Source of the DNA: Rouxiella sp. WC2420
GTDB lineage: Bacteria > Pseudomonadota > Gammaproteobacteria > Enterobacterales > Enterobacteriaceae
Assembly: GCF_041200025.1 (NCBI RefSeq)
Contig: NZ_CP165628.1
Span: forward strand, 3,782,001-3,846,000
Direction of reading: 5' to 3'
Length of the DNA: 64,000 nucleotides
Numbering within the stretch: position 1 is the stretch's first letter; every line of letters starts with the position of its first letter. The translations under genes were made by a program, and so were the position numbers. Positions 34,639 through 57,515 of this stretch are shown one piece after another. The notes below the pieces were generated by a model. The model ran no database searches. It was not told the DNA's origin and saw only the letters and a program-made list of their open reading frames with translations.

Positions 34639-34690
34639 ACCGCTCCCTTAGCGGTTTTAGATTGGCAATCTAAAGGCAACTTTTTTGTGC
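34639..34690 (+). terminator. yeiG terminator fused to repeat-cluster end
   Basis: ACCGCT/AGCGGT (34639-34655) with TTTT starts one base after the yeiG stop. A second hairpin, TAGATT/AATCTA (34658-34672), is followed by TTTTTT. From 34652 to 34698 the sequence is almost the same, in opposite orientation, as the right end of the second cluster (45 of 47 bases by eye). Confidence 0.75.
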
Positions 34691-34783
34691 TGCGCACTGG
34701 CTTGTGTGCTGCGCACGGCCTTTAATGCTGCGCATGGCCCTTAATGCTGCGCATGGCTTAACTTCAAATTCAAATTCAACTTC

Positions 34784-35085
34784 ATGCGCTGCGCTTACTG
34801 GGCTGCGGCCCAGACCGCCTCAAGGGTGGCCCTTGGGCCGCCACCCTTAAGAATCCCCGGCCCCTTTTCTCGTGACCAGATTGGTGCAAAAAAAGTAGAT
34901 CTTTTCAGAAGCCTCGGTGCGTGGCGTTGGCCACGGCCCTGCGGGCTGCCTTCACTCAGTCGGGAGCCAAAAGCGTCTCCCTTTCCTTCGCTCAGCGTAG
35001 GCCTGAGGCCGCCAATAGTAGCTAAAAAGAAAAACCGGCAACTCTACGGCGGTCAACGCTACGCCTGATGCTGCGCATGGCCTTT
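34784..35085 (+). repeat. Repeat unit A1
   Basis: The unit starts ATGCGCTGCGCTTACTGG. A head of nested palindromes follows (GGGCTGCGGCCC; AAGGGTGGC/GCCACCCTT enclosing GGCCCTTGGGCC), then CCAGATTGGTGCAAAAAAAG and a GC-rich tail. It contains an open frame of 94 codons, also present in units A2-A4. I do not regard it as a gene, because most differences between copies change the amino acid. Confidence 0.85.
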
Positions 35086-35114
35086 AGCTTAACTTCAAAT
35101 TCAACTTTAACTTC

Positions 35115-35763
35115 ATGCGCTGCGCTTACTGGGCTGCGGCCCAGACCGCCTCAAGGGTGGCCCTTGGGCCGCCACCCTTAAGAATTCCGGGCCCTTGTCG
35201 CCGTTGAATAAAACGGTTCTCAAGTTTGTAGCTCTTTCCAGTCACTCCTCTGTGTGGCGCGTTGCCGCGTGGCTCCGCCATTCCTTCGCTCGGTCAGGAG
35301 CCAAAAACGTCTCCTTCCTCTCACTCAGCGCCGTCACGGAGTGCGCCAATATTAGCCCCTAGGGAAAACCGCTCCCTCCTTTTTTAAATAAAACTCACAA
35401 CGGCAAAGGAAAAATAATGGGTAAGAGCGATGGATTTTTGACTTTATGCCGGATGGAAAGTTTTTGGACCTAAGGTCAGGTTGCCGATTTTTCTTTAATA
35501 GCCCTGATTGGCGGTCTCGGGGCGGCGCTGAGGGAGGGAGAAAGACGTTTTTGGCTTTCGAACGAACGAGGGGACCGCGCAGCGGCGCGACCAACGCCAC
35601 ACACAATGGCAACTGAAACGAACTCATCGTCTGGTGCCGTACAGGCAAGCGACACCCAAAGGGCGCGGAGATGCAAGAGGGCTCGCCCTGGAGACCTCTT
35701 GCCCGGTTCCGGCGCTGCCGGCTAATTGACCATTGAAATGAGTGAACCGGAAAAACTCCTCGG
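35115..35763 (+). repeat. Repeat unit B1
   Basis: The unit has the same head as unit A (to about 35186), then a different middle, then from 35478 an arm that is an inverted, diverged copy of the A-type tail. It ends with several hairpins, for example CAAGAGG/CCTCTTG around GGGC/GCCC. It aligns without gaps with B2, with about 20 substitutions by eye. Confidence 0.85.
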
Positions 35764-35841
35764 AATTTAATGGCCTTAGAAGTTAATCGCGATCAATGCC
35801 ACACTTGATGCTTTGCATGGCTTAACTTCAACTTCAACTTC

Positions 35842-36490
35842 ATGCGCTGCGCTTACTGGGCTGCGGCCCAGACCGCCTCAAGGGTGGCCCTTGGGCCGCC
35901 ACCCTTAAGAATTCCGGGCCCTTGTCGCCGTTGAATAAAACGGTTCTCAAGTTTGTAGCTCTTTCCAGTCACTCCTCTGTGTGGCGCGTTGCCGCGTGGC
36001 TCCGCCATTCCTTCGCTCGGTCAGGAGCCAAAAACGTCTCCTTCCTCTCACTCAGCGCCGTCACGGAGTGCGCCAATATTAGCCCCTAGGGAAAACCGCT
36101 CCTTCCTTTTTTAAATAAAACTCACAACGGCAAAGGAAAAATAATGGGTAAGAGCGATGGATTTTTGACTTTATGCCGGATGGAAGGTTTTTGGACCTAA
36201 GGTCAGGTTGCCAATTTTTCTTTAATAGACCGAATTGGCGGTTTCGGGCCGGCGCTGAGCGAGGGAGAAAGACGCTTTTGGCTTTCGAACGAACGAGGGG
36301 ACCGCGCAGCGGCGCGACCAACGCCACACTCGGTGGCAACTGAAACGAACTCATCGTCTGGTGCCGTACAGGCAAACGACACCCAAAGGGCGCGGAGATG
36401 CAAGAGGGCTCGCCCTGGAGACCTCTTGCCCGGTTCCGGCACTGCCGGTTAATTGACCATTGAAATTCGTGAACCGGAAAAACGCCTCGG
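35842..36490 (+). repeat. Repeat unit B2
   Basis: This is a tandem direct copy of B1 at a constant offset of 727 bases, same length (649), about 97% identical by eye. The linker between them includes TTAACTTCAACTTCAACTTC. The duplication looks recent. Confidence 0.85.
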
Positions 36491-36580
36491 TGATCATTGA
36501 CCTTAAAAAGCCTGTGCGCAGCACCTAAAGCCCGTGCGCTGCGCATGAAGTTGAATTTTGAAGTTAAACCTTGTGCAGCA

Positions 36581-36610
36581 ATATAAAAACCTAGCTTTTA
36601 AGCTTAGGAT
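36581..36610 (-). terminator. Terminator overlapping the end of gsiD
   Basis: On the minus strand CCTAAGCTT pairs with AAGCTAGG (one bulge) across the last gsiD codons and is followed by TTTTTATA. Confidence 0.55.
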
Positions 36611-37511
36611 CCAGGGCATCCCTTAATCCGTCCCCCAATAAATTAAACGCCAACACGGTTAAAAATATCGCCAGACTGGGGAAAATAGCCTCGTGAGGAG
36701 CAGTAACCATGTCCGCACGAGCTTCGTTGAGCATTGCGCCCCACTCCGGCGTTGGCGGCTGCGCGCCCATGCCCAGGAACGACAGGCTTGCGGCAGTAAT
36801 GATTGAGGTGCCGATGCGCATGGTGAAATACACCACCACCGATGACAGCGTGCCGGGCAGAATATGGCGGAACAGAATAGTCATGTCCGAAGCGCCAATA
36901 CTGCGCGCCGACTCAATATAGGTGAGATTTTTCAATACCAGCGTATTGGCCCGCACCAAGCGAGCGAAGGCCGGAATACTAAAAATCGCCACTGCGACAA
37001 CAACGTTCGCCATGCCATTTCCCATTACAGCAACCACGGCAATTGCCAGCAAAATACCCGGAAAGGCAAACAGCACGTCACAGACGCGCATGGTTACCCT
37101 GTCCCACCAGCCTTCATAGAAACCGGCCATCAGCCCCAGCACTGTGCCAATCGCCGCGCCGAGGATAACCGATAACACCCCGGCCGCCAGCGAGATCCTC
37201 GCGCCCATCAGAATACGGCTAAAAATATCCCGCCCCAAAGAATCAACGCCCAACCAATGCAGCAGCGAAGGCCCTTCATTCAAGCGGTCATAATCAAAGT
37301 AGTTTTCAGGATCGAACGGCACCAGCCATGGCGCCAATATTGCTGCGCCAATCAACAGAACAACAAATATGCCGGCGACCAGCGCAATATGCTGCTTGCG
37401 AAAACGTCGCCAAAAAGCGCGCCACGGCGTGCGTACCGGCTTACTGCTTACCTTTTCCTGTGTGACCAGTGGCATGGATGCCAGCGCGGCTTTGCGTCGC
37501 CAGTTTTTCAT
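36591..37511 (-). CDS. gsiD: Glutathione ABC transporter permease GsiD
   Basis: GsiD is a membrane subunit of the dipeptide-type ABC importer for glutathione. It is 306 residues from the ATG at 37511, with an N-terminal basic stretch ([16 protein letters not shown]), about six membrane segments, and conserved [22 protein letters not shown] and the EAA loop [19 protein letters not shown]. The start is uncertain: a GTG at 37523 overlaps the gsiC stop (GTGA) but has no Shine-Dalgarno. It is the last gene of gsiABCD and converges on yeiG across repeat cluster 1. Confidence 0.93.
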
Positions 37512-37519
37512 GCGCTTAC

Positions 37520-38440
37520 TCACTTGTATCGAATTGAAGGATTGATGACCGCATACAGCATGTCGACCAACAGGTTGATAAGGATAAACTCCAGCGAAAA
37601 CAGCAATACTTCGGCCTGAATCACCGGATAATCGCGCATTTCTACCGAGTCGATAAGCAAACGGCCCAAGCCCGGCCAGTTGAACACTTTTTCGACAACA
37701 ATCGAACCACCAAGCAAAAATCCGAACTGCAATCCCATCATGGTGACTACCGGAATCATCGCGTTACGCAGCCCGTGTTTAACGACCACCACAGATTCAC
37801 GCACGCCTTTTGCCCGCGCGGTGCGCATGTAATCTTCCTGCATCACCTCGACGAAGGAGGCTCTGGTAAAACGAGCCATGATTGAGGCCACCGCTGCGCC
37901 AAGGGTGATCGAGGGCAAAATGTAGTTGCGCCAGCCATCCGCGCCAATAGTTGGCAGCCAGCCAAGTTGTACGGAAAAAATCTGCATCAGCAACATGCCC
38001 AGAGCAAACGCCGGGAACGAAATTCCCGATACGGCGAGCGCCATGCCCAAACTGTCAGGCCAGCGGTTGCGCCATACCGCAGATACCACGCCAATAATCA
38101 GTCCAAAAATCACCGACCACAGCATGCTGGTCAGCGTGAGATATAACGTCGGCATAAAACGCGAGCTGATTTCATCGATCACCGGTCGTTTCGAGACCAT
38201 CGACTGCCCAAAATCACCACGCAGTGCGTGCTCGAAGAAAATCAGAAACTGCTGCCAAAGAGGTTTATCAAGGCCAAGATCCTGACGCACCATATTCACC
38301 ACGCTCTGATCGGCATCTTGCCCGGCCAGCATGCGTGCAGGGTCGCCCGGCAGTAGATGGACGAATAAAAACACCAGCACAGCAACAATCAGCAGCGTCG
38401 GGATTAGGCCGAGCAGTCGCTTTAAAAAATAATTGAGCAT
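37520..38440 (-). CDS. gsiC: Glutathione ABC transporter permease GsiC
   Basis: GsiC is the other membrane subunit of the glutathione importer. The 306 residues equal the E. coli length. It starts [20 protein letters not shown], has about six membrane segments, and carries [15 protein letters not shown] and an EAA-type loop around [21 protein letters not shown]. It is separated from gsiB by 169 bases with a stem-loop. Confidence 0.95.
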
Positions 38441-38523
38441 AATTAATCAGGATTTTTCATTAGATATTCTATCCACACGTTGTCCCATCGACGTTTTAAA
38501 ACGCCATCGCCCCTGGCTGCCGA

Positions 38524-38565
38524 CACTCACTCCAAGGCTTACCAGAGCAAGTATCGGAGTGAGTG
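38524..38565 (-). other. Stem-loop between gsiB and gsiC
   Basis: A perfect 10-bp stem (CACTCACTCC/GGAGTGAGTG) with a 22-base loop lies 45 bases past the gsiB stop. No T run follows. It may be an mRNA-stability or processing element that raises binding-protein levels. Confidence 0.5.
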
Positions 38566-38609
38566 CATTGCCACCCGTAGATGAAATCCAATCGGACGAT
38601 GAGTAAGGG

Positions 38610-40148
38610 CTATTTCACGTCTGCATTATCAAAGTTGAATGAAGTATCGGGCATCACGTAGAAGCCGGTCAGGCGCTTATTACTGGCTGACAGCAGGCGC
38701 TCGGTTGCCAGGAAAGCCCAGGGGGCATCGGCCCAGATACGGTCCTGCGCGTCTTTATACAGCTTGTCCTTCGCTGATTTATCAGTCGTGTTCAGCGCAT
38801 CGCTCAAATCTTTATCGACCTGCGGATTGCTATAGAACGCAGTATTGAACTGCTTTGGTGGTGCAGATTGAGTAGCAAACAGCGGCGTTAGTGCCCAGTC
38901 AGCTTCACCGGTAGAGGCCGACCAGCCAGTGTAGAACATCCGCAGGCCCGACTCTTTCTGGCCGACGTTCTCAACCTGAGCGGCACGCTGCGCGGCATCA
39001 AAAGCAGTCACAGTGACTTTAATCCCTACCTGCGCCAGCTGCTGCTGTGCGAACTGAATGACTTTCTGCGCGGTGCTGGAATTGTGTGACGACCACAGCG
39101 TAGTAGTGAAGCCGTTTGGATAACCCGCCTCTTTCAGCAACTCTCGGGCCTTGGCCGGATCGTAAGGCCATGGCTGATATTTTGCAGAATATTCGATACT
39201 GGTCGGCAATGGCCCTTCAGCAGGCACCGCGTAACCGGCAAACGCCACTTTAATCAGCGCCTGTTTGTTAATGGCATAGTTGATAGCCTGACGGACTTTT
39301 AGATTATCAAAAGGCTTTTGGGTAATGTTGAAACTGATGTAACGCTGCAAAATTGATGGCGAAGTCACCAGATTCAATTTGCTGTTTTTTTCCAGCAAAG
39401 CCGCCTGCTCATAAGGCACCGGATACGCTAAATCGGCCTCACCGGTTTGCAACATTGCAGCACGGGTATTGTTATCAACCACTGGCCGCCAGGTGATGGT
39501 GTCCAGTTTTGGCTCGCCTTTTTTCCAGTAGCCGTCAAACTTCTTCACTTTCACGAAATCAGTCTGATTCCACTGTTCCAGCGTATAAGGGCCTGTTCCG
39601 ACCGGATGGAAACCAATGTCTTTGCCATATTTCCCCAGCGCCGCAGGTGAGATCATCACCGCAGAAGGGTGTGCAAGATTATTAATAAAGGCTGAGAATG
39701 GCGCTTTCAGAGTGATCTTGACGGTATCAGCGTCAATCACCTCGGTTTTGGCAATCATCTTGAACAGGTTGTAACGTTTGAGATGGCTGTCAGGATTGCT
39801 GGCGCGATCGAGGTTAACTTTTACCGCTGCCGCATTAAAATCGGTGCCATCCTGGAATTTGATCCCCGGATGCAGCTTGATAGTGTAAGTAAGGCCATCC
39901 TGGCTCACGGAGTAGCTGTCGGCCAGCACGTTAACCAGCTTCATGTCTTTGTCAAAACCGAACAGGCCCTGATAAAACGATTTTGCTACCGCCTGAGAGA
40001 GCGTGTCGTTGGCGTCATACGGGTCCAGTGAGGTGAAGTTTGAACCAACTGCAATCACGACATCCTTCGCTGCCCAGACTGAACCGGAAGCCATTGCGCT
40101 AAGCATTACCGTCGCCAGAACGGCTCTGCGCATCATTTTCTGCTTCAT
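38610..40148 (-). CDS. gsiB: Glutathione-binding periplasmic protein GsiB
   Basis: GsiB is the periplasmic receptor of the glutathione importer (SBP family 5). The 512 residues match E. coli. It has a Sec signal peptide cleaved near [10 protein letters not shown] and the family signatures [28 protein letters not shown] and [19 protein letters not shown] precedes the ATG. The order gsiA-gsiB-gsiC-gsiD is as in E. coli. Confidence 0.95.
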
Positions 40149-40205
40149 ACTGATTTCCTTTTCCTTAGACCCTGTAGATAAAGCTCCCTGTAAGTTGGGC
40201 GCTCC

Positions 40206-42122
40206 TTAATAAACGCCGGCAATAGCATGACGAGCAACGTAATGCCCCTCAGACACTTTCACCAGCGGTGCAATAATAGGCTCATCGCCGATCGCTCGGA
40301 TCGGACTTGGGATTTCATCCACCAGCAGCGCCTGTTCAACACGTCGATGTTGCGGGTCCGCCACTGGCACCGCAGCCATAAGCTTGCGGGTGTAGGGATG
40401 CTGCGGATTTTCAAACACCGCCGCCCGTGGCCCGATCTCGACAATTTGCCCGAGATACATAACCGCGACACGATGGCTTATCCTTTCTACTACCGCCATG
40501 TCGTGCGAGATAAACAGAAACGCGATGCCAAATTCTTTCTGCAGATCCATCAGTAGATTGACGATCTGCGCCTGTATCGAAACATCCAGCGCCGACACCG
40601 ACTCATCGGCAATCACTACTTTAGGATTCAGTGCCAATGCGCGGGCAATACAGATCCGCTGACGCTGACCGCCTGAAAATTCATGCGGATAACGCTCGGC
40701 GTGCTCCGGCAATAGCCCAACTTTCTCCAACAGCCATGAAACCCGCTCTTTTGCCTGTTCACGACTGCCAATTTTATGGACCAGCAGGGGTTCCATGATG
40801 GAATATCCCACCGTGAGGCGCGGATCGAGGGAGGCGTAAGGATCTTGAAAAATAAACTGAATATCACGTCGAAGATGTTGTAGCGCAGAACTGGAAAGCT
40901 GCCCGGTATGTTCGCCATCGAACACAGTTTTGCCGTTAAAAATAACTGAACCACTCTGGCTTTCGACCAGCCTGAGCAATGAACGCCCAGTGGTAGATTT
41001 GCCGCAACCGGATTCTCCAACCAGCGCCAGAGTTTCTCCGGGATAGATATCGAAGCTCACCTTTTCCACCGCGTGCACATAGCGGTTTATACGATTAAAC
41101 AGGCCACTGCGTAACGGGAAACGAGTCACCAGACTGCGCACCTGCAAGATAGGAGCGGCACCTAAAGTTAAAGTATTTTGAATTAAGGAGGAGTCATCAA
41201 CGGGCTGATCGTTGACTTCGGTATTTAACAGCGGGAAACGAGCGGGTAGCTGAGTGCCTTTCATTGCGCCAAGTTTTGGCACCGCAGCGAGCAACGCGCG
41301 GGTGTAGGGATGTTGCGGCGCGGCAAATACGCGACCCACTTCACCGCTCTCAACACTTTCACCTTTATACATCACCAGCACACGGTCGGCGATTTCGGCC
41401 ACCACGCCCATATCGTGAGTAATGAAAATCACCGCCATCTGCATCTCTTGCTGCAGCACGCGGATCAGTTGCAGAATTTGCGCCTGAATGGTGACGTCCA
41501 GCGCGGTGGTCGGCTCATCGGCAATCAGCAGCGCCGGTTTACACGACAGCGCCATCGCAATCATCACTCTCTGGCGCATCCCGCCGGAAAGCTGATGCGG
41601 GTAACTATCAAGAATATTTTGCGCTTCGGGAATGCGCACCAGCTCAAGCATGCGCAAAGCTTCTGCACGCGCGGCGGCATGGTTTTTGCCCTGATGCAGA
41701 CGGATAGATTCGGCAATCTGTTCGCCGACCGGAAACACCGGGTTAAGCGAGGTCATCGGCTCCTGAAAAATCATTGCCATATCCGCACCGCGCAGCTTGC
41801 GCATCTCGGACTGGCGGGCGGCAGTCAGGTCAACAATCTGCCCGTTACGACGCCTAAAATCGATTTTTCCCTGATGAACCTGGCCACCACCCTGCTCCAC
41901 CAGGCGCATCAATGCCAGTGAGGTGACGGATTTCCCGGAGCCTGATTCCCCGACGATCGCCAGCGTCTCACCGCGTTTTACCTCAAAGTCGAGATGACGC
42001 ACTGCCTCAATCGCCTGCCCCTCGTGCTCGAAACGAACGCTGAGACTGCGCACCGACAGCACTTGATCGTCAAGCATTGTCGGTGCCGAAAACGCGTGCT
42101 CGGGGGAAATTGTCTGACTCAT
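40206..42122 (-). CDS. gsiA: Glutathione ABC transporter ATP-binding protein GsiA
   Basis: GsiA is a fused double ATPase of the glutathione importer. Domain one has [17 protein letters not shown] and LLIADEP; domain two has [17 protein letters not shown] and VVIADES. Each ends in the oligopeptide-transporter segment around PQHPYTR. The product has 638 residues against 623 in E. coli. I chose the ATG at 42122, with AAGGAG 5 bases upstream. iaaA lies 73 bases upstream in the same direction, as in E. coli. Confidence 0.96.
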
Positions 42123-42195
42123 CACGACTCCTTAACCATGTACTTCTCCCTGAATTTCTTGAAACTCGCCTGCTGATTAGCAATAACTTCAGATG

Positions 42196-43221
42196 TTAAC
42201 GATAAATTGCCACTTCTGGCGCTTTGCCAACGTAGGCAAAACCGCGATACATACCTTCGCTGTTAAACGGCAGGCGTACATTGCCGAAACGGTCGATGGC
42301 TATCATGCCACCCGAGCCTTCCAGCGCCACCAGCTTTTCCATTACCACTTTATCGGTGGCCTGTTCGAGTGTAAGTCCTGCGTACTCAATCAGCGCGGCG
42401 ACATCATAGGCCGCGACTGTGCGCATAAATACTTCACCAGTGCCGGTGCTGGAGACTGCGACCGTTTTATTGCTGGCATAGCAGCCTGCGCCGATAATTG
42501 GCGTATCGCCAACACGGCCAGCCTGTTTATTGGTCATGCCGCCGGTTGAAGTCGCAGCAGCCAGATTACCCATAAGATCCAATGCAACGGCACCAACAGT
42601 GCCAAATTTGCGATCTGGATCTAAAGGATCGTCAGAAATATTGGCATTTAAGCTCGCTCCGTCATGATCAAGCATGACGCCATCAGTTTTCAGAGCGCGT
42701 TGCAGTTGATCGAAACGGTCCTGAGTGAAGAAATAATCTGCCGACACCATTTCTTGCCCGTGCTCACGCGCAAACGATTCCGCGCCTGCGCCGGTAAACA
42801 TTACGTGCGCGCTCTGTTCCATCACTTTACGGGCGGTCAAAATCGGATTGCGGATGTGACTGACGCAGCTGACAGCGCCGGAATCCAGTGTGCGGCCATC
42901 CATAATACAGGCATCGAGTTCGTGAGTGCCCTGGTGGGTAAATACCGCGCCGGTTCCGGCGTTGAAAAACGGACACTCTTCCAGCAGGCGAACCGCCTCG
43001 GTCACTGCGTCAACCGCGCTGCCACCCGCTGCCAAAATTGCCTGCCCGCTGCTGACGATCTCTTCCAGCGCCTGTAAATAAAGACGCTCTTTTTCGGCGC
43101 TCATTGCCTGGCGAGTTATCGCCCCAGCGCCACCATGAATAGCAATTACCGCCACCGGTGACGTTGAATCAGGTGTTCCGCCTATCACTACAGTTTGAGA
43201 TATGGTCATTTTTTCGCTCAT
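42196..43221 (-). CDS. iaaA: Isoaspartyl peptidase/L-asparaginase IaaA
   Basis: IaaA is an N-terminal-nucleophile hydrolase that cleaves isoaspartyl dipeptides and L-asparagine after self-processing. The nucleophile Thr is in FGTVGAVALD, where the precursor splits. Substrate-binding blocks AIHGGAGAI, LLEECPFFNAGTGAVF, TSTGGMTNK, GRVGDTPIIGAG and STGTGE are intact. It is 341 residues, with a longer N-terminus than E. coli: about 20 residues precede VAVIAIHGG. A second ATG at 43209 is possible. It probably supplies peptides for the glutathione/peptide locus downstream. Confidence 0.95.
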   Translation of the reverse strand: MSEKMTISQTVVIGGTPDSTSPVAVIAIHGGAGAITRQAMSAEKERLYLQALEEIVSSGQAILAAGGSAVDAVTEAVRLLEECPFFNAGTGAVFTHQGTHELDACIMDGRTLDSGAVSCVSHIRNPILTARKVMEQSAHVMFTGAGAESFAREHGQEMVSADYFFTQDRFDQLQRALKTDGVMLDHDGASLNANISDDPLDPDRKFGTVGAVALDLMGNLAAATSTGGMTNKQAGRVGDTPIIGAGCYASNKTVAVSSTGTGEVFMRTVAAYDVAALIEYAGLTLEQATDKVVMEKLVALEGSGGMIAIDRFGNVRLPFNSEGMYRGFAYVGKAPEVAIYR

Positions 43222-43432
43222 GTGCCACTAAGGCCGCCTAAAGAATAGTCCAGGATTTCGACTATATTTAGCCGTGCAGAGTATGTAAAGCTGAAAATTA
43301 AGTCCATCTTGACGAGGCTAATTGCTTAGATTATTTATAGAAAATAACGCGCAGGAATGAATAACCGACGGCGGATAAAACGAAAAAAAGGAAAACCAGC
43401 GGCGCTGATTTTCCTTCTTGATATTGAGGGGC

Positions 43433-43663: not shown

Positions 43664-43697
43664 CACGATGCAACTCCAGACGCAAAAGACAATTTTA

Positions 43698-43713
43698 TGT
43701 GACACCCATCACA
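43698..43713. promoter_or_regulatory. CRP-binding site
   Basis: TGTGA-CACCCA-TCACA is a perfect CRP core, centred at 43705.5. It lies 35 bases before the miniature DeoR gene, too close for the usual -41.5 activation of that start, and 288 bases before moeA. The target gene is unclear; repression or a missed transcript is possible. Confidence 0.6.
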
Positions 43714-43923: not shown

Positions 43924-43993
43924 AAAGGATATTTCTCACCATCAACCGGCTCGCCTTATGCCCCTTCTCAGCCGGTAATAAAAGGGTTTAATG

Positions 43994-48053: not shown

Positions 48054-48926
48054 TCAGAAGCTATAACCGATCACTGCGTAGTAGCCAAAACCGGTTGATT
48101 TGACGGTGAAATCGCCGTCACCGAAGTTCAACTGGGTGCCATCGGCCCATTGTCCGCCGTTGTGGAAGTAACGCGCCACCAGCGAGTAATGCCAGTGCGC
48201 ATAGTTCAGCGCCAAAATGTGGCTGGAAGCTATCGAATGGTTGGTTCGTGCGTAGTTCTCGTGATCGGCCAGATGTGAACCCCAGTCGAAGTTGGTAAAG
48301 CCGATATAGCTGACTTTCCCGCCCCACATTTCACCTAACGGCAAGAAGTATTTCACTTTGAAACGGTAACCGTCCCATTTGTTTTCATTGGCAGCACCAT
48401 AGTTTTGCCATTGATATTTTTTATAAATATTCAGAGACAGGTTTAACGGCGTGTGAGTATCGATGTCGGTACCCAGGCCCATGTACCAAGTATTCTGGCG
48501 GTTGGCGTTGTTAGGGCCCTGATCGTAAATATAGTTGTTGGCGAAATACCACTGCTTGATCGGGCCGATGCTCAGATCTTTGCCGGTCAGTTTATCGATA
48601 GAGAAACGCGGTTCGATCTCGGTAAATACTGGAGAACCTACTTTTCTGTCCCAGATGCCGTTGTCGTTGCCGTTACCTACACCGAAGAATTTTGGCACAT
48701 CGACATAACCGTAGAAGTCGAACCAGTCTTTATGCGCAAAGGCTTCGTACTCAAGATATAAGTCATTGTTTTCATGTGGTCCAAAACGCGTGTGGTAGCT
48801 GCCAACCACGTTAACGCTTTGATGCCACCAGTCGGAAACGTATTGATCCTTGAGATCGTCAGCAAGCGTTTGCGCACTGTAAGAAGAAAGGAGAAGTGCA
48901 CCTGCCAGTAAAATTTTAGTTTTCAT
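48054..48926 (-). CDS. tsx: Nucleoside-specific channel-forming protein Tsx
   Basis: Tsx is a 12-stranded outer-membrane barrel that lets nucleosides through and is a receptor for phages and colicins. The 290-residue product has a signal peptide ending QTLADD, then [47 protein letters not shown] and [12 protein letters not shown]. It ends in the barrel signature Phe (VIGYSF). The extracellular loop segment after NFDWGS is shorter than in E. coli. Control by CRP is likely. Confidence 0.95.
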
Positions 48927-49081
48927 GGGTTACCAGAAGCAAAAGGAAAGCAACTCCCTGGCGTGGGGAGATATTTGTGTATAAAAACGACCCTGCTAAC
49001 AAGCCGACACATTCCGGAAATCGCACGTTCAAATAAACGTCACATCGGAAAATTCTGTATACGGCGTAAATGTTGTCTCTT

Positions 49082-49159
49082 AATTATCGACTCGGTCAAC
49101 ATTTGTCAATTTCAGTTTCATTTTCATACACACTTTATGTGATCGATGTCACATAAATT
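49082..49159 (-). promoter_or_regulatory. tsx promoter with CRP site
   Basis: On the minus strand TTGACA (49110-49105) and TAATTA (49087-49082) are 17 bases apart. A perfect CRP core, TGTGA-TCGATG-TCACA (49139-49154), sits inside a 24-bp palindrome (49136-49159), centred near -71.5 from the predicted start. That is an allowed class I position. The rest of the 362-base gap holds only the betA terminator. Confidence 0.7.
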
Positions 49160-49215
49160 TCACGTTCTTATGCTTTTGCTTTCTATGCTTATGCTTTTGG
49201 CTCCTCCAGTGAGAA

Positions 49216-49252
49216 GGCAAAAAAAGGGGATAATCCGAAGATTATCCCCTTT
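49216..49252 (-). terminator. Terminator of the betIBA operon
   Basis: A perfect 13-bp stem (49223-49252, core GGGGATAATC/GATTATCCCC) has a TTCG loop on the minus strand and a run of seven T after it, 37 bases past the betA stop. Confidence 0.9.
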
Positions 49253-49288
49253 AATCACGTCTTAACTGCCTAGAGCGTAAATTTATAC

Positions 49289-50986
49289 TTAAACAGTTTT
49301 ACTGTTACTCGCCTTCAGCGGCTCGCCGCGCACCGGAGCGCCGTTGGCCTGATAATACTCGGTGGTGCTGCGTGGCAGCGGCTGGCGACCACGAATAACA
49401 TCAGCAATTTTCTCGGCAATCATGATGGTAGTCGCGTTCAGGTTGCCAGTAATGATTTGCGGCATAATTGAAGCATCAACTACGCGAAGATTCTGCAAGC
49501 CGTGAACGCGCCCTTGCCCGTCAACCACGGCCATCTCGTCGCTGCCCATTTTACAGCTACAGGATGGATGGAACGCGGTTTCAGCATGTTCGCGAATAAA
49601 CGCATCCAGCTGTTCGTCGGTCTGCACCTGGATACCCGGACTGATTTCGCGGCCACGATAAGGGTCCAGCGCCGGCTGAGCCATGATTTCACGGGTAATG
49701 CGGATAGCATCGCGGAACTCATGCCAGTCCTGTTCGCTAGACATGTAGTTGAACAGAATACTCGGATGCTGGCGTGGATCTTTCGATTTTACCTGCACGC
49801 GACCGCGGCTTGGCGAACGCATAGAACCCACGTGCGCCTGGAAGCCGTGTTCTTTTACACCATTACTGCCGTTGTAATTAATCGCTACCGGCAGGAAATG
49901 ATACTGAATGTTCGGCCAGGTAAACTCTTCGCGGCTGCGGATAAAACCACCGGCCTCAAACTGGTTGCTGGCACCAACGCCAGTGCCATTAAACAACCAT
50001 TCGGCACCAATTTTCGGCTGATTAAACCATTGCAACGCCGGATAAAGCGAAATCGGCTGAGTACAGCTGTACTGCAAATACATCTCCAGATGGTCCTGCA
50101 AATTTTCGCCCACGCCCGGCAAATCGTGTACTACAGGAATATCCAACGAATTCAACAATGCTGCTGGACCCACGCCCGAGCGTTGCAGAATCTGTGGAGA
50201 AGCAATCGCTCCACCACACAGCAGAACCTCGCGTTTTGCCTGAGCTTCAATCAGCTTGATATCGTCGCCTTTCATATAGTTGACGCCCACGGCTTTCTTG
50301 CCATCAAACAGAATGCGGTCGGTGGTGGCGTGAGTGACGATAGTCAGATTGGCGCGCGGTTTAGCCTGATCCAGATAACCACGAGCGGTACTCGCACGGC
50401 GACCTTTTGGCGTCACGGTGCGGTCCATCGGGCCAAATCCTTCCTGCTGATAACCATTGAGGTCGTCAGTGCGCGGATAACCCGCCTGAACGCCTGCTTC
50501 AATCATCGCGTGGAACAGCGGATTGTTGCCGGCTTTCGGGGTGGTGACGCTAACCGGGCCGTTATCGCCGTGGAAATCATTACCGCCAATATCACGGGTT
50601 TCTGCCTTGCGGAAATAAGGCAGGCAGTCGAGATAGCTCCAGTTTTCAAGCCCCGGCGCGGTGGCCCAATTGTCGAAATCCATCGCGTTGCCACGGATGT
50701 AGCACATGCCGTTGATCAATGAAGAGCCGCCCAGACCTTTACCACGGCCACACTCCATGCGGCGGTTGTCCATATGTGGCTCGGGGTCGGTTTCATAGGC
50801 CCAATTATAGCGACGCCCCTGCAATGGAAATGCCAATGCAGCAGGCATCTGGGTACGGAAATCGGCACGGTAATCCGGACCGCCCGCTTCGAGCAACAGC
50901 ACGCTGACGCTGCTGTCTTCGGTGAGTCGGGTCGCTAACACGTTGCCGGCAGAACCCGCACCAATAATAATGTAATCGTAATCCAT
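49289..50986 (-). CDS. betA: Choline dehydrogenase
   Basis: BetA is a membrane-associated FAD (GMC) oxidoreductase that oxidises choline to betaine aldehyde and further to glycine betaine. The 565-residue product has the FAD dinucleotide motif [18 protein letters not shown] signatures [14 protein letters not shown] and [15 protein letters not shown], and the C-terminal catalytic region [12 protein letters not shown] and [11 protein letters not shown] chose the ATG at 50986 with AGGAGA upstream; the longer upstream frame overlaps betB out of phase. It is the last gene of betIBA. Confidence 0.96.
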
Positions 50987-51011
50987 AAAAATCTCCTCTA
51001 GCAGTCGGCGG

Positions 51012-52484
51012 TTAAAACACCGAACTAAATTCGCCCAGCTCAACCTGCACGGATTTGATTTGTGTGTAATGTTCAAGCGTGCTGACGCCGTTTTCACGAC
51101 CGACGCCTGAATGCTTGTAGCCGCCAACCGGCATTTCTGCCGCCGATTCGCCCCAGGTATTGATCCAGCAAATACCGGCTTCAAGCTGATGAATAACGCG
51201 ATGCGCCGTGTTGAGGTCGCGAGTGACCAGACCGGCGGCCAGACCATAATCGGTATCATTGGCGCGACGAATCACTTCTTCTTCGCTTTCGTAAGTCAGG
51301 ATGCTCATCACCGGTCCGAAAATCTCTTCGCGGACGATTTCCATCTCATCGCGGCAGTCAGTAAACACCGTCGGCGCGACAAAAGCGCCTTTGCCGTATT
51401 CGCCGCTGGTTACGCGTTCGCCGCCAATCAGCAGACGTGCGCCTTCACGTTTGCCGCTATCGATAAAGCGCAGCACGGTTTCCATGTGGGCAAAGCTCAC
51501 CAGAGGCCCAAAGTTCACGGCTTCATCGGTCGGCTGACCCAGCTTGATGCGCTTGACACGCTCAAGAATTTTGGCTTCGAATTCGCCCTGCCGTGTTTTC
51601 GGTACAAAAACGCGGGTGCCGTTGGTACACACCTGTCCAGAGCTGTAAAAGTTAGCCATCATCGCGATGTCGGCGGCCTTATCTAAATCGGCATCCGGGA
51701 AAATGATGAGGGGTGATTTACCCCCCAACTCCATGGTTACTTCTTTCAGCGTGGACGCCGAGGCGCTGGCCATGACTTTCTTGCCGGTCACGACGCCACC
51801 CGTGAAGGAAATTTTGGCAATACCGGGATGTTCGGTCAGATATTGACCGATTTCAGCGCCCTTGCCGGTCAACACACTGAACACGCCATCTGGCACACCG
51901 GCTGCGGTGTAAATTTCAGCCAGTTTCAATGCGGTTAACGACGTGACCTCGCTTGGCTTGAAGATCATTGCGTTACCTGCAGCCAGCGCTGGCGCGGATT
52001 TCCACAGTGCGATTTGTATCGGATAGTTCCACGCACCAATGCCTGCAACGACGCCCAACGGTTCGCGACGAGTGTAAACAAACGCGCTGTCACGCAGTGG
52101 GATCTGCTGACCTTCAATCGCCGGGATCAGACCCGCGTAATACTCCAGTACGTCGGCACCGGTCACAATATCTACGGCGGTGGTTTCAGACAGCGGCTTA
52201 CCGGTATCCAGCGTTTCAATTTGCGCCAGTTCGTCATTACGATCACGCAGGATATCCACGGCCTTGCGCAGGATGCGGGAACGTTGCATCGCGGTCATCG
52301 TGGCCCAGATTTTTTGCCCCTTCTGCGCAGCCACAACCGCACGGTCGAGATCTTCGCGAGTTGCCGAGGCTACCTCGGCCAGAGTTTCACCGTTGGCCGG
52401 ATTAATGGCCGGAAAAGTTTCACCGCCGGTGCTGTCCTGATAGCGACCGTCGATATAAAGTTTTTGCATGCCAAAGCGGGACAT
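51012..52484 (-). CDS. betB: Betaine aldehyde dehydrogenase
   Basis: BetB oxidises betaine aldehyde to glycine betaine with NAD(P)+. The 490 residues equal the E. coli length. Active-site motifs are the Glu in ELGGKSPLI and the Cys in GQVCTNGTR; the cofactor loop [11 protein letters not shown] and the ending HSGVGRENG are normal. AGGAGA precedes the ATG. It lies between betI and betA, with short gaps of 25-48 bases. Confidence 0.97.
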
Positions 52485-52532
52485 AAATTCTCCTGTATGA
52501 AAGCAAGCAACTTGTGCAGGCTTTTCAGTGTT

Positions 52533-53126
52533 CTAACGGGCGGCAGTCTGCGCCAGCGATTCGATATAACGATGCGTAATTAATAACGCCTCCTGGCGAT
52601 CGAATGCTTCGTGACTCAGCGCGCTGCGCAACCACAAACCATCAATCAGACCTGCCAGGCCTTTCGCTGCCAGACGCGCCTCGTGATGAGGTAAAAAACG
52701 TCGAAATTCGACGCAAAGATTCGAGTAGAGCCTTCTGCTATTCACCTGCTGTAAACGATACAGCTGCGGGTGATGCATGCTCGTGGCCCAAAACGCCAGC
52801 CAGGTTTTCATCGCCGGATCGTTGGTTTGCCCTTCATCAAAGTTGGCTTGGGCAATCGCCCGCAGCCGCGCAGTCGGCGAATCATCGTTTAAGGTAGCAA
52901 GCCTTTGCTTGACGCTGTCGCCAAGGTGACTGAGCAAATAACGCATCGTCGCCTCAAGCAGGCCATTTTTGTCACGAAAATAGTGACTGATAATGCCGTT
53001 CGATACGCCCGCCCGACGAGCAATCTGGGCAATCGAGGCATCGTGCATGCCAACTTCATTCACGGCGGCCAGCGTCGCGTCAATCAACTGCTGTCGCCGA
53101 ATCGGCTGCATTCCAACTTTAGGCAT
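52533..53126 (-). CDS. betI: HTH-type repressor BetI
   Basis: BetI is a TetR-family repressor that senses choline and controls betIBA and betT. The 197-residue product has a TetR HTH ([20 protein letters not shown], then [20 protein letters not shown]) and a ligand domain with [21 protein letters not shown] chose the ATG at 53126 ([13 protein letters not shown]), as in E. coli; an in-frame GTG at 53135 is less likely. It faces betT across a region with the BetI operator. Confidence 0.96.
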
Positions 53127-53223
53127 GGACTCCACTCCTGAAAAAGGCGTTTCGAAACGGCCATTTTGCGGGCTGTTTCAATGTTAATGAACGCCGTAAC
53201 TGCCCCTATTAAACTTTTTTTTG

Positions 53224-53237
53224 ATTGAACGTTCAAT
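53224..53237. promoter_or_regulatory. BetI operator
   Basis: ATTGAACGTTCAAT is a perfect 14-bp palindrome at the position and with the core (TTGA..GTTCAA) expected for the BetI binding site between betI and betT. Confidence 0.75.
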
Positions 53238-53422
53238 AAAAAATGCATATATTTTATTACCGGTTGGTAACCAGTTTGGGCAAAAAAGTGCTTAAAAAAG
53301 TTATCAATTGATTGAAAAACAATAAGTTTAAGGAATTATTTCCCTAAGCTTACTTTTTGGTAGTGATTGGAATTTATAGCCAGTGTACTCAGCGGATCTC
53401 CTGTCAGGACAAATATTTTGCC

Positions 53423-53510
53423 GATGCAAAAGCAGTCCTCGGTGTTCTTGATATGCGCTAAGGCGCGCTGCTTTTGCGTCCAATCGCTTACCTGTTTTTT
53501 GTTTTTTTTT
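53423..53510 (+). promoter_or_regulatory. betT leader stem-loop with delayed T run
   Basis: GATGCAAAAGCAG (53423-53435) pairs with CTGCTTTTGCGTC (53468-53480), 12 of 13 positions; the loop contains a small GCGC/GCGC stem. A T-rich run (53495-53510) follows 14 bases later, shortly before betT. It could be an attenuator, an RNA-stability element or a decayed terminator. Confidence 0.4.
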
Positions 53511-53533
53511 ACTTCTGATAAAACGGGAAAACG

Positions 53534-55570
53534 ATGGCTTCTATCGAACTTTCGGATAAACCTAAAGACTCGCTAAACAAGGTGGTGTTTTTTACCTCGG
53601 CAGGATTGATTCTGGCCTTTACGCTGATGACCATTTTCTTTACCGATATCTCTGGAAAAGCAATTGGCGTGGCGCTGGAATGGGTATCGGCCACTTTCGG
53701 TTGGTATTACATGCTCGCCGCCACCTTATACATTGTATTTGTGGTGTTTATCGCCGCCTCGCGCTTTGGCTCGATCAAACTCGGGCCAGAACAGTCGAAA
53801 CCTGAATTCTCGATGATGAGCTGGGCATCGATGCTGTTTGCCGCCGGTATCGGCATCGACCTGATGTTCTTTTCAGTGGCCGAACCCGTGACGCAATATA
53901 TGCTGCCGCCCGAAGGTCAGGGGCAGAACATTGCTGCGGCCAGGCAGGCGATGGTTTGGACACTGTTCCACTACGGCCTCACCGGCTGGTCGATGTACGC
54001 CTTGATGGGCATTGCATTGGGTTATTTCAGCTACCGCTATAACCTGCCGTTGACTATCCGCTCCGCGCTGTATCCGATTTTTGGCAAGAAGATCTATGGT
54101 CCGATCGGTCACAGCGTAGATATTGCGGCAGTAGTCGGCACCATCTTTGGCATCGCAACCACCTTGGGTATTGGGGTGGTGCAGCTTAACTACGGCCTGA
54201 AAGTCTTGTTCCATATTCCAGAAAGTCTGGGGGTACAGGCGGCGTTGATTCTGCTGTCGGTGATTATGGCTACGGTTTCTGTGACCTCTGGCGTGAACAA
54301 AGGCATCCGCATCCTTTCGGAGCTGAACGTCCTGTTGGCGCTGGGTCTGATCCTGTTCCTGCTGTTCTTCGGCAATACTGAATTTCTGCTCAATGCTCTG
54401 GTGCTGAATATTGGCGACTACATAAATCGCTTTATGGGCATGACACTAAACACCTTTGCGTTTGATCGACCAACGCAGTGGATGAACAGCTGGACTCTGT
54501 TCTTCTGGGCCTGGTGGGTTGCCTGGTCGCCGTTTGTCGGGCTGTTTCTGGCGCGTATCTCTCGTGGCAGAACCATCCGTCAGTTCGTATTGGGTACGCT
54601 GATTATTCCATTTGTGTTCACGCTATTCTGGCTGTCGATTTTCGGCAACAGCGCGCTTTACCAGATCCTGCATGGTAATCTGGCATTCGCCAATGAAGTG
54701 ATTGCTCACCCTGAGCGCGGCGTTTACAGCCTGCTGGCACAATACCCTGGCTTCACTCTTAGCGCCTCGGTGGCAACTATTACCGGCTTGCTGTTCTATG
54801 TCACTTCAGCGGATTCGGGTTCACTGGTGCTGGGTAATTTCACCTCCAAGCTGGTCGACATCAATAATGATGCGCCAAACTGGCTGCGCATTTTCTGGTC
54901 GGTGACCATCGGGGTTCTGACTTTGGGGATGCTGATGACCGACGGTGTTTCGGCATTGCAGAACACCACGGTGATCATGGGCCTGCCGTTTAGTTTTGTG
55001 ATCTTCTTTGTGATGGCCGGGCTGTACAAGTCGCTGCGCCTTGAGGATTTCCGCCGCGCCAGTACGCAGCAGAACTATGCACCCGCCACGCCGTCAACCG
55101 GAGATGCGGCGCTGAACTGGAAGCAGCGTCTGTCACGAGTGATGAATTTCCCGGGCACCACGCACACGCAGAAAATGCTCGATATTGTCTGTCGCCCGGC
55201 AATGCAGGAAGTCGCAAATGAGCTTGAACTGCGCGGCGCCAAGGTTGAATTCTCTGAGGCGCAAGCGCTGGAAGATGAAAAGCTCAATCATCTGGAGTTA
55301 TTGGTCAAGCTGGGCGAGGAGCAGAACTTTATCTATCAGATTTGGCCACAGCGCTATGCCGTGCCGGGCTTTACTTATCGTGCTCGCTCGGGGAAATCGC
55401 ACTATTACCGCCTGGAAACCTTCCTGCTCGAAGGGACACAGGGTAACGATCTGATGGACTTTACCAAGCATCAGGTGATCAACGATATCCTCGACCAGTA
55501 CGAGCGACACCTGAACTTCCTGCATATTAATCGGGAAGCCCCGGGGAATACTCTGACGTTTCCCGAGTAG
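53534..55570 (+). CDS. betT: High-affinity choline transporter BetT (BCCT family)
   Basis: BetT imports choline, driven by protons, as precursor of the osmoprotectant glycine betaine. The 678 residues match E. coli. It has about 12 membrane segments, the BCCT signature region (MNSWTLFFWAWWVAWSPFVG, then LFLARISRGRTIRQF), the GIGIDLMFFSVAEP glycine-rich stretch, and a cytoplasmic tail of about 180 residues that in E. coli tunes osmotic response. It is divergent from betIBA. A 6-bp hairpin CCCGAG/CTCGGG spans its stop codon. Confidence 0.96.
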   Translation: MASIELSDKPKDSLNKVVFFTSAGLILAFTLMTIFFTDISGKAIGVALEWVSATFGWYYMLAATLYIVFVVFIAASRFGSIKLGPEQSKPEFSMMSWASMLFAAGIGIDLMFFSVAEPVTQYMLPPEGQGQNIAAARQAMVWTLFHYGLTGWSMYALMGIALGYFSYRYNLPLTIRSALYPIFGKKIYGPIGHSVDIAAVVGTIFGIATTLGIGVVQLNYGLKVLFHIPESLGVQAALILLSVIMATVSVTSGVNKGIRILSELNVLLALGLILFLLFFGNTEFLLNALVLNIGDYINRFMGMTLNTFAFDRPTQWMNSWTLFFWAWWVAWSPFVGLFLARISRGRTIRQFVLGTLIIPFVFTLFWLSIFGNSALYQILHGNLAFANEVIAHPERGVYSLLAQYPGFTLSASVATITGLLFYVTSADSGSLVLGNFTSKLVDINNDAPNWLRIFWSVTIGVLTLGMLMTDGVSALQNTTVIMGLPFSFVIFFVMAGLYKSLRLEDFRRASTQQNYAPATPSTGDAALNWKQRLSRVMNFPGTTHTQKMLDIVCRPAMQEVANELELRGAKVEFSEAQALEDEKLNHLELLVKLGEEQNFIYQIWPQRYAVPGFTYRARSGKSHYYRLETFLLEGTQGNDLMDFTKHQVINDILDQYERHLNFLHINREAPGNTLTFPE

Positions 55571-55666
55571 CGACTCGGGGGCGCTTTAAAGAGGGTTTGT
55601 GCGCCGCACGGGCTGGTGTGCTGCGGATAGCTTTAGGTGCAGCGCACAGCTTTTAACTTAAAATCT

Positions 55667-55951
55667 ATGCGCTTCGCTTACTGGGCTGCGGCCCAGACCG
55701 CCTTAAGGGTGGCCCTTGGGCCGCCACCCTTAAGAATCCCCGGCCCCTTTTCTTGTGACCAGATTGGTGCAAAAAAAGTAGATCGTTTCAGAAGCCTTCG
55801 TGCGTGGCGTTGGCCACGGCCCTGCGGGCTGCCTTCACTCAGTCGGGAGCCAAAAGCGTCTCCCTTTCCTTCGCTCAGCGTAGGCCTGAGGCCGCCAATG
55901 GCAGCTAAAAAGAAAAACCGGCAACTCTACGGCGGTCAACGCTACGCTTGA
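55667..55951 (+). repeat. Repeat unit A2
   Basis: This A-type unit has the same palindromic head and tail as A1, starts ATGCGCTTCGCTTACTGG, and has the 94-codon open frame. An extra upstream stretch of that frame is chance. Confidence 0.85.
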
Positions 55952-56012
55952 TGCTGCGCATGGCCTTTAGCTTAACTTCAAATTCAAATTCAACTTTAAC
56001 TTCATGAACTTC

Positions 56013-56297
56013 ATGCGCTTCGCTTACTGGGCTGCGGCCCAGACCGCCTCAAGGGTGGCCCTTGGGCCGCTACCCTTAAGAATCCCGGGCCCCTTTTCTC
56101 GTGACCAGATTGGTGCAAAAAAAGTAGATCGTTTCAGCAGCCTCCGTGCGTGGCGTTGGCCACGGCCCTGCGGGCTGCCTTCACTCAGTCGGGAGCCAAA
56201 AGCGTCTCCCTTTCCTTCGCTCAGCGTAGGCCCGAGGCCGCCAATAGCAGCTAAAAAGAAAAACCGGCAACTCTACGGCGGTCAACGCTACGCTTAA
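56013..56297 (+). repeat. Repeat unit A3
   Basis: This A-type unit lies 346 bases after A2. Its linker carries repeated AAATTCAA and TTCATGAAC hexamer-like words. The open frame is the same length as in A2. Confidence 0.85.
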
Positions 56298-56355
56298 TGC
56301 TGCGCATGGCCTTTAGCTTAACTTCAAATTCAACTTCAACTTCAACTTCAAATTC

Positions 56356-56640
56356 ATGCGCTTCGCTTACTGGGCTGCGGCCCAGACCGCCTTAAGGGTG
56401 GCCCTTGGACCGCCACCCTTAAGAATCCCCGGCCCCTTTTCTCGCGACCAGATTGGTGCAAAAAAAGTAGATCGTTTCAGAAGCCTTCGTGCGTGGCGTT
56501 GGCCACGGCCCTGCGGGCGGCCTTCACTCAGTCGGGAGCCAAAAGCGTCTCCCTTTCCTTCGCTCAGCGTAGGCCTGAGGCCGCCAATAGCAGCTAAAAA
56601 GAAAAACCGGCAACTCTACGGCGGTCAACGCTACGCTTAA
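56356..56640 (+). repeat. Repeat unit A4
   Basis: This A-type unit lies 343 bases after A3. The linker is AACTTCAACTTCAACTTC. Differences from its neighbours are scattered substitutions, most of which would change the predicted peptide. Confidence 0.85.
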
Positions 56641-56686
56641 TGCTGCGCATGGCCTTTAGCTTAACTTCAAATTCAACTTTAACTTC

Positions 56687-56963
56687 ATGCGCTGCGCTTA
56701 CTGGGCTGCGACCCAGACCGCCTCAAGGGTGGCCCTTGGGCCGCCACCCTTAAGAATCCCCGGCCCCTTTTCTTGTGACCAGATTGGTGCAAAAAAAAGT
56801 AGATCGTTTCAGCAGCTCCCGTGCGTGGCGTTGGCCACGGCCCTGCGGGCTGCCTTCACTCAGTCGGGAGCCAAAAGCGTCTCCCTTTCCTTCGCTCAGC
56901 GTAGGCCTGAGGCCGCCAATGGCAGCTAAAAAGAAAAACCGGCAACTCAACGGCGGTCAAAAG
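56687..56963 (+). repeat. Repeat unit A5 with frame-breaking A insertion
   Basis: This A-type unit lies 331 bases after A4. The A run after GGTGC has eight A instead of seven, so the open frame shared by A1-A4 is broken. Its tail diverges at about 56960. Confidence 0.85.
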
Positions 56964-57110
56964 CCGATCTCACAAAGATAGGTCTCTTAGGTTTGTTCGA
57001 GACTAAATATAACTTTTGATTTCGTTTCTGAATTAATAAAACCGATGTTCGCAGAATGTCACCTTCAAAAGAAAATTTTTGCCAGAAGAAAGGTCTTTTG
57101 ATCTCAGCTT

Positions 57111-57395
57111 AGGTTGCCGGTTTTTCTTAGATAGACCGAATTGGCGGTCTCGGGGCGGCGCTGAGCGAGGGAGAAAGACGTTTTTGGCTTTCGAACGAAC
57201 GAGGGGACCGCGCAGCGGCGCGACCAACGCCACACACGGTGGCAACTGAAACAAACTCATCGTCTGGTGCCGTACAGGCAAGCGACACCAAAGGGCGCGG
57301 AGATGCAAGAGGGCTCGCCCTGGAGACCTCTTGCCCGGTTCCGGCGCGGCCGGTTAAATATCCATTAAAATTAGTGAACCGGAAAAACTCCTCGG
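57111..57395 (-). repeat. Inverted repeat arm C
   Basis: This stretch resembles the right arm of the B units (35478-35763) and is a diverged reverse complement of the A-type tail. It contains the CAAGAGG/CCTCTTG hairpin with an inner GGGC/GCCC, and ends with GTGAACCGGAAAAACTCCTC. Confidence 0.8.
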
Positions 57396-57469
57396 TGATC
57401 ATTGACCTTAAAAAGCCCGTGCGCAGCACCTAAAGCCCATGCGCAGTACACAAGCCGTGCGCAGCACAA

Positions 57470-57515
57470 AAAAGTTGCCTTTAGATTCCAAATCTAAAAC
57501 CGCACTCTGTTCGGT
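57470..57515 (-). terminator. EEP-gene terminator fused to repeat-cluster end
   Basis: On the minus strand a short ACCG/CGGT stem with TTTT follows the EEP stop at once. Then comes the perfect 8-bp hairpin TTTAGATT/AATCTAAA and a T6 run. The arrangement mirrors the yeiG end of cluster 1. The first stem is weak. Confidence 0.55.

Follow-up and report, generated by a model that had tools for sequence, protein, structure and literature searches.

The REP/PU and BIME families, as passages of PMC2817692 and PMC3733652 describe them, are extragenic palindromic units in alternating orientation that form mosaics with tail motifs. The ERIC repeat, about 127 nt long, is predicted to fold as one long stem-loop (passages of PMC2267715 and PMC1590033). 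Here, a family of larger repeats is described from a 64,000-nt stretch of Rouxiella sp. WC2420 (NZ_CP165628.1, positions 3,782,001 to 3,846,000), the whole of which is called the window. A sequence-only reading had picked out two gene-free clusters in it (34652-36580 and 55571-57502), each between genes read toward each other. Both clusters are present at these coordinates, and gene calls and family matches place both between convergent genes. The explanation preferred here, tentatively and at just short of even confidence, is that the clusters are old, largely vertically inherited two-sided 3'-end elements working by read-through transcription. The repeat family is apparently undescribed so far: no paper was found in the open literature whose title, abstract start or passages describe it, and none of the passages of PMC2267715, PMC2817692, PMC8375033, PMC1590033 and PMC3733652 does so.

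The grammar of the element consists of one or more A units of ~290 nt followed by inverted, diverged copies of them, termed BC. In Rouxiella aceris, 38 clusters in 33 loci were sampled (further matches at contig ends were left out); A units come first, then one to six BC, or fragments thereof at contig ends. Additional short-A, C or end pieces lie close to the borders of several of these clusters, and in one (L243) the A-BC block occurs more than once. Such blocks may also repeat in the WC2420 genome, so that A can come after BC. In two further genera, labelled g41 and g52, the usual form is a single facing pair. Opposed neighbours in g41, g52, Rahnella plasmids and the Rouxiella genome G001, judged by eye, are facing (+ then -) in 25/25 cases, a count that leaves out L298, which lies at the same place as L273; a scripted count on 51 of 65 model matches gave 18/18. 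The tree of 32 units, thinned from 167 collected, has a branch (97/97) that separates A units from reverse-complemented BC. The A units of both species lie on one side of it and the BC of both on the other, and BC is therefore an inverted, diverged A.

Each unit strings together small hairpins (H1, H2, P1, P2 and P3) over ~300 nt; double substitutions preserve these, P2 and P3 most of all. Covariation was tested on 21 of the 167 units, over a core of 144 positions. Helix P1 is paired in 94% of cells, P2 in 99% and P3 in 92%; a further helix, P4, is poorly kept (66%) and is not claimed as conserved. Double-sided changes affect 11/20 pairs, with no shuffle of 500 reaching the observed double changes, and the same holds for the covariation score (0.382 vs 0.200 in shuffles, 0/500) and for overall pairing (87.6% vs 78.2%, 0/500). 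Helices slid by 1-3 columns lose half of their pairing (43-48%). An alignment fitted to the covariance model was used for 34 g41/g52 matches, some of them weak, which gave 82.4% pairing against 74.0% in shuffles (0/500), 31-46% in slid versions, and 13 pairs with double changes against 9.2 (4/500).

The P2 hairpin, a 4-bp stem with a 3-nt loop, illustrates this turnover well. Its Rouxiella stems read GCCC/GGGC, TGGC/GCCA, CCGC/GCGG and CTGC/GCAG, and the best P2-type hairpin in each of 51 model matches is fully paired in 44 of them and adds four more stem types, although choosing the best hairpin per match biases towards pairing; eight different fully paired stems are thus found across the Rouxiella and other-genus sets. 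P3 holds a CC...GT loop inside changing stems (by eye), and H2, a hairpin of 9-13 bp, has been rewritten by double changes. Within one genome the P2 and P3 stems of A and BC differ, each being self-paired, so that it is the local hairpin that is kept; a long A:BC duplex is ruled out as the conserved structure on the same observation. RNAalifold, run on all A units jointly, returned a positive (unfavourable) covariation term, which we think arises from misaligned hairpins of different species; separate groups and hand-set helices were used instead.

The family is unevenly distributed. Similarity to one A unit was found at 43 places of the 5.28-Mb WC2420 genome, and similarity to the B-C-T-E part (T and E being shorter modules of the clusters) at 59; these places group into 12 sites. 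A pattern of the most conserved hairpin, run over the genome collection, gave 54 matching stretches, of which Rouxiella aceris SAP-1 accounts for 45 and 'Serratia sp. M24T3' (G312), which belongs to the same species as WC2420, for the other 9; 2/295 family-sample genomes, both Rouxiella, have it. A shorter loop motif occurs in 34 and 126 copies in those two genomes and at most twice in each of the other 390, like its reversed control. Structure reached further. The first covariance model, built from 21 units, matched 6/178 family genomes and added g41 and g52; the second, built from 57 sequences, matched 15/392 (5/5 g41, 5/5 g52, 4/5 Rouxiella and one marginal match in a fourth genus, E 3.8e-4). 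In the order-wide sample of 295 genomes the model matched three, one in each of the three genera. The structure model thus found relatives in other genera that sequence searches had missed. As 8-17 candidates per genome were scored, these matches are not copy numbers for the other genera. Among the Rouxiella genomes lacking a pattern match, the model gave clear units in G001, one partial unit in G003 and none in G004, where blastn found two short matches.

Relatives also occur on Rahnella megaplasmids (12 records by blastn, with model matches in both records examined). These copies are closer to the g52 loci (~72-89% identical) than to the g41 loci (69-72%), and for this reason g52 is probably Rahnella. 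The g41 unit, searched against plasmids, also matched three Klebsiella records, within the glyS gene, and one Aeromonas record. An A unit gave no blastn match in E. coli genomes, and an origin of the Rouxiella-type units from plasmids, phages or E. coli was ruled out, no such copies being found. Membership of a known Rfam RNA family was likewise rejected: up to E 1 nothing in the clusters matched Rfam 15, and in five loci of relatives only a tRNA scored over its curated threshold, the rest lying far below.

The position of the clusters relative to genes is strongly biased. After hand correction, the 12 WC2420 sites comprise 8 convergent, 4 tandem and 0 divergent gaps; the corrections, made in this genome only, concern small or AT-rich open reading frames (ORFs) missed by the codon model (L093, L095 and L098 becoming convergent, L094 tandem) and tRNA arrays counted as neighbours at L091 and L100. 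In R. aceris, 32 of the 38 clusters have both flanks and divide into 18 convergent, 13 tandem and 1 divergent; 16 of the 20 g41/g52 loci do, with 12, 4 and 0, respectively. Pooled, 38/60 are convergent and 1/60 divergent, compared with 14/96 and 29/96 in a background of R. aceris gaps longer than 60 nt; the window's own background gaps include 5 convergent and 7 divergent of 32. Fisher tests of convergence against the R. aceris background give p = 3e-4 (own genome), 9e-6 (R. aceris), 2e-6 (g41/g52) and 7e-10 (pooled). The predicted bias to convergent gene ends thus holds in three genera. Where R. aceris genes are in tandem, the distance from the cluster to the stop of the upstream gene is shorter than that to the start of the following gene in 12/13 cases. 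Of two Rahnella plasmid loci outside these counts, one is divergent, and the other counts as convergent once the two facing hypothetical proteins annotated on the element are set aside. As a separate observation, the clusters at L091 (5450-6520) and L100 (4830-6580) lie 3' of tRNA-Val/Lys and tRNA-Lys arrays, respectively, in neighbourhoods where ORFs recur about every 200 nt, a sign of tandem repeats.

Convergent bias alone is not special, since the preference of stem-loops for convergent gaps is general in bacteria, according to a passage of PMC1590033. The main competing explanation is a neutral or selfish repeat that brings the host no benefit, survives where it does least harm (3' ends and convergent gaps), is kept alike by gene conversion, and owes its hairpins to the chemistry by which it spreads. 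An orientation bias of this kind would already follow if promoters alone were avoided, copy number differs widely among genomes (12 own sites, 38 clusters in the R. aceris loci examined, almost nothing in G003 and G004), and module content turns over within one species. A neutral repeat explains the position bias nearly as well; it explains less well why the element has stayed so long at particular gene ends while genera diverged, and it explains less well the paired changes, which occur in several hairpins without a Y1 transposase or a visible target duplication. It is a realistic possibility, still well short of even probability.

The sites themselves are old and largely vertically inherited, while their content is fluid. 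All 12 WC2420 sites are found in M24T3, mostly with flanks 97-99% identical, eight with both flanks on one contig and four (L091, L096, L098 and L100) at contig ends. Despite these near-identical flanks, the modules of the two strains differ at 9/12 sites (L092 and L100 are nearly alike, and L098 cannot be judged), which bears out the suggestion that the clusters recombine. At the site of window cluster 2, M24T3 has the same outer sequences, with A4-B-C replaced by ~1.3 kb containing a C fragment and an intact Cif-family gene (PF16374, E 1e-42; L203 1863-3159, contig 28). Cluster ends may act as recombination arms for cargo genes, here one of the Cif (cycle inhibiting factor) family. Separately, an AT-rich 300-codon ORF of cargo-like appearance lies between an outlying E module and the cluster at L098 (3273-4598; own genome ~3.878 Mb), in a gap of 33% GC.

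R. aceris carries a cluster at 8/12 of the WC2420 sites, six recognized by both flanks and two, L091 and window cluster 2 (L097), by one flank only. With 40 clusters placed among 300, 700 or 3000 candidate gaps, the chance of at least eight shared sites is 2e-5, 2e-8 or 2e-13. At L093 (own) and L108 (R. aceris), the clusters occupy neighbouring gaps one gene apart, possibly through a local shift or a separate gain. The thinned units nevertheless group by genome inside A and inside BC (91/81 for the WC2420 A group, 100/99 for the other three), a pattern of concerted evolution. Beyond the genus, one or both of the gene ends next to the element also border a Rouxiella cluster in 7/20 g41/g52 loci, as a raw count: both genes are shared by L287 with own L090 and by L286 with L242 of R. 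aceris, and one gene by L291 (the permease gene beside window cluster 1), L276, L280, L288 and L273. Seven more loci entered the comparison, including four at the same places in other species, and none shares a gene end with a Rouxiella cluster.

This inheritance bears directly on whether the facing pair is the transposable unit of a non-autonomous mobile element (MITE- or REP-like) whose enzyme is not yet recognized, in line with the sequence-only reading, which had thought the clusters possibly mobile. The inverted architecture and inverted end modules, the high copy number in R. aceris and the relatives on Rahnella megaplasmids would all suit such an element. Against it stand the 12/12 sites found in the second strain by at least one flank (eight have both flanks on a single contig, and one of these contains a gene together with cluster ends), the lack of Rouxiella-type copies on plasmids or phages, and the module map of the window, where neither cluster has E at both ends. 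Y1 (REP-type, RAYT) transposases, searched as PF01797, occur in 0/6 genus genomes against 5/14 matching control genomes, other transposase families not being part of the search. No target duplication was seen, the empty sites in G003 and G004 being too diverged to read one. Mobility is thus not borne out, and a mobile element is a decidedly unlikely explanation.

Transcription signals inside the clusters are few. No sigma-70-like promoter is found in either (0.7-0.8 expected), and a consensus scan finds 2 terminator-like sites in cluster 1 and 1 in cluster 2, against 4.4 and 3.8 in shuffles. The lack of promoters speaks against independent non-coding RNA genes or small protein genes, as does a P1 loop that differs by one base between A and A2 (a variant A unit), shifting any frame. 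In favour of such genes are the open frames of 80-104 codons in the A units and the annotation of a Rahnella copy (L293 2960-3666, on the Rahnella sikkimica plasmid NZ_CP019063.1), which shows two hypothetical proteins facing each other, although that annotation is probably spurious; this explanation is very improbable. The cluster ends had also been thought to supply the terminators of the adjoining genes, and this claim proved weak: only at the two E ends is the boundary straddled by a hairpin, which is small, has a short tail rich in T and was not listed by the consensus scan.

Strong ordinary terminators are fewer at gene ends next to clusters than at convergent background ends, to a degree that depends on the threshold. 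At or below -12 kcal/mol they are present at 13/64 cluster-adjacent ends against 22/38 convergent background ends (p = 2e-4), at or below -10 at 19/64 against 24/38 (p = 0.002), and at or below -8 at 27/64 against 26/38 (p = 0.014). These thresholds were examined together, on gene calls made in this analysis, and some of the terminators counted at cluster-adjacent ends lie inside the element; an earlier test with loops of at most 10 nt was dropped from the comparison after missing a putative terminator picked out by eye in G004. The deficit fits an element that stands in for a terminator.

The favoured two-sided 3'-end role would work as follows. The facing pair presents A to a transcript from the left and reverse-complemented BC to one from the right, so that a transcript from either convergent gene meets the unit first in the same sense; it is mainly because of this facing order that the role is preferred. 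Most pairs lie at gene 3' ends, and at many of these they have stayed across species and genera. The element would act when transcribed by read-through, its hairpins slowing or ending both converging transcripts and/or capping and protecting mRNA 3' ends, and would thereby buffer, as a structured element, transcription units that collide. The two arms have grown into arrays in two Rouxiella species; within a genome the copies are homogenised and exchanged among sites, for which gene conversion and unequal recombination are the presumed routes. Both roles that the sequence-only reading had suggested, transcription barrier and mRNA 3' end, fit the data, and we infer that the element probably limits read-through or protects mRNA ends.

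Several results weigh against this role. At or below -6 kcal/mol there is no significant terminator deficit (40/64 vs 29/38, p = 0.19), and against all 114 background ends the deficit gives p = 0.012 at -12 and 0.16 at -8. Genomes G003 and G004 have no cluster at either window site (gap ~90-130 nt), where the element is thus dispensable; G001 retains, by eye, a short A-like remnant. By codon-model calls alone the own-genome sites are 6 convergent, 5 tandem and 1 divergent, and divergent genes flank both R. aceris cluster L107 and one Rahnella plasmid copy outside the orientation counts. Pair types show no excess over shuffles (20 vs 19.9, 295/500), and related sequences can exceed shuffles without any structure. 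The strand, finally, is ambiguous: H2 mismatches lean antisense (30 A-C vs 6 G-T, in the sense of A), P1 mismatches lean the opposite way, to sense (201 G-T vs 39 A-C cells), and folding z-scores lack a consistent strand polarity, with means of -0.6 to -3.2 on both strands. With helices defined by Watson-Crick pairs alone, the counts are even (12 G-T vs 11 A-C columns summed over groups).

As the strand tests disagree, a DNA-level or two-strand function is conceivable. Such a site would lie between converging units, where positive supercoils build up, and would act by putative hairpin extrusion or by binding a nucleoid protein, gyrase or a recombination or replication factor. Convergent gaps are where sites of this kind would be useful, and the folds without consistent polarity agree with it. 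So does the grouping of 6/12 sites within 325 kb of the WC2420 chromosome (3.675-4.000 Mb; scan probability 0.004). On the other hand, a row of hairpins whose stems vary would be unusual as a binding site for a protein, and what stands out as conserved is the P3 loop region and the stem-loop form of P2. This explanation is considered unlikely. That the elements form a new class of two-sided structured 3' element, in which both converging genes read into a copy of one folded unit and selection has kept the pair at certain gene junctions from before the split of the genera, its primary sequence being rewritten meanwhile, is doubtful, without being far-fetched; if true, it would be a transcription collision buffer working from both sides.

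In the window, cluster 1 lies between an esterase family gene (PF00756, read earlier as yeiG; 33826..34638, + strand, start as called here) and an OppC-like permease gene (36591..37523, -), whose 3' end carries a facing pair in another genus too (L291). Cluster 2 lies between a BCCT transporter gene (53534..55570, +) and an endonuclease/exonuclease/phosphatase (EEP) family gene (57516..58607, -). Modules repeat with high identity inside each cluster and between the two, and module B is ~73% complementary to the second half of A. Cluster 1 follows the order E, T, A, A2, B, C, A2, B, C, T. Its T module, made of short GTGCTGCGCAC repeats (34682..34737, -), is followed by a multi-hairpin A unit facing right (34784..35073, +), an A2 variant unit (35109..35385, +), a B-C module that is an inverted, diverged copy of A and hence faces left (35478..35763, +), a second A2 unit (35836..36112, +), a second B-C module (36205..36500, +) and a T module that forms the right edge, ~50 nt from the permease stop codon (36505..36539, +). 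This A2 unit closes, at 35361-35377, with AGGGA-loop-TCCCT and then CCTTTTTT; the arrangement is terminator-like and was not listed in the A units of either cluster. Cluster 2 reads, from left to right, T, four A units of ~290 nt each, spacer, B, C, T, E: its left edge is a T module (55596..55654, -) after the BCCT transporter stop at 55570, followed by the A units (55665-55956, 56013-56302, 56356-56645 and 56687-56960; all +), a B-C module that is again an inverted, diverged A copy (57106..57405, +), and a T module (57410..57472, +).

Each cluster has an E module at one outer end only. That of cluster 1 (34651..34684, -) is an AT-rich hairpin, TTTAGATT-GGC-AATCTAAA, with a T run, ~12 nt past the esterase stop (34638); that of cluster 2 (57470..57505, +) lies ~10 nt from the EEP gene stop codon (57516), so that both cluster ends do adjoin stop codons, as claimed. 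The inverted boundary reported between the left end of cluster 1 (34652-34698) and the reverse complement of the right end of cluster 2 is real, with 44/47 ungapped identities in place of the 45/47 first given, and extends over ~93 columns once one gap is allowed; it is not due to chance, because the E module recurs elsewhere in the genome. The differences had been placed in a hairpin loop, which is right for two of the three (in the 3-nt loop between TTTAGATT and AATCTAAA); the third is one inserted base at position 47. The shared E boundary belongs to this species' version of the element, R. aceris clusters carrying a different end sequence.

The fate of converging bacterial genes is an open question, for which this family offers dozens of natural sites with and without a defined element. 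Position, facing order and folds are conserved in it while the sequence changes almost beyond recognition. Shared sites, within-genome homogenisation and module swapping between strains also make it a clear case of concerted evolution in bacterial non-coding DNA.

Compared with described systems, the family follows the BIME-like logic proposed for it, with inverted structured units in mosaics, on a much larger scale. It shares with REP/BIME, as passages of PMC2817692 and PMC3733652 present them, the intervening motifs, the palindromes preserved through change and the frequent head-to-head dimers. It differs in its unit of ~290-300 nt with several separate hairpins, against a palindromic unit of 20-40 nt in those passages, in its one facing order, and in having many sites common to species and genera. 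A REP/RAYT system was rejected on unit size and on the transposase result given above. Like ERIC and YPAL of the Enterobacterales, these are intergenic structured repeats and possible RNA hairpins in co-transcribed mRNAs (passages of PMC2267715 and PMC1590033). They are set apart from these two by the published descriptions, the sequence check being the blastn of the A unit against E. coli genomes only; unlike ERIC, they form a pair of ~300-nt units whose arms each fold on their own and grow into arrays. Intrinsic terminators that work in both directions between convergent genes, as outlined in a passage of PMC1590033, occupy the same position and have the same proposed job; the present elements differ from them in that no T tract follows their conserved hairpins and in a length of hundreds to two thousand nucleotides.

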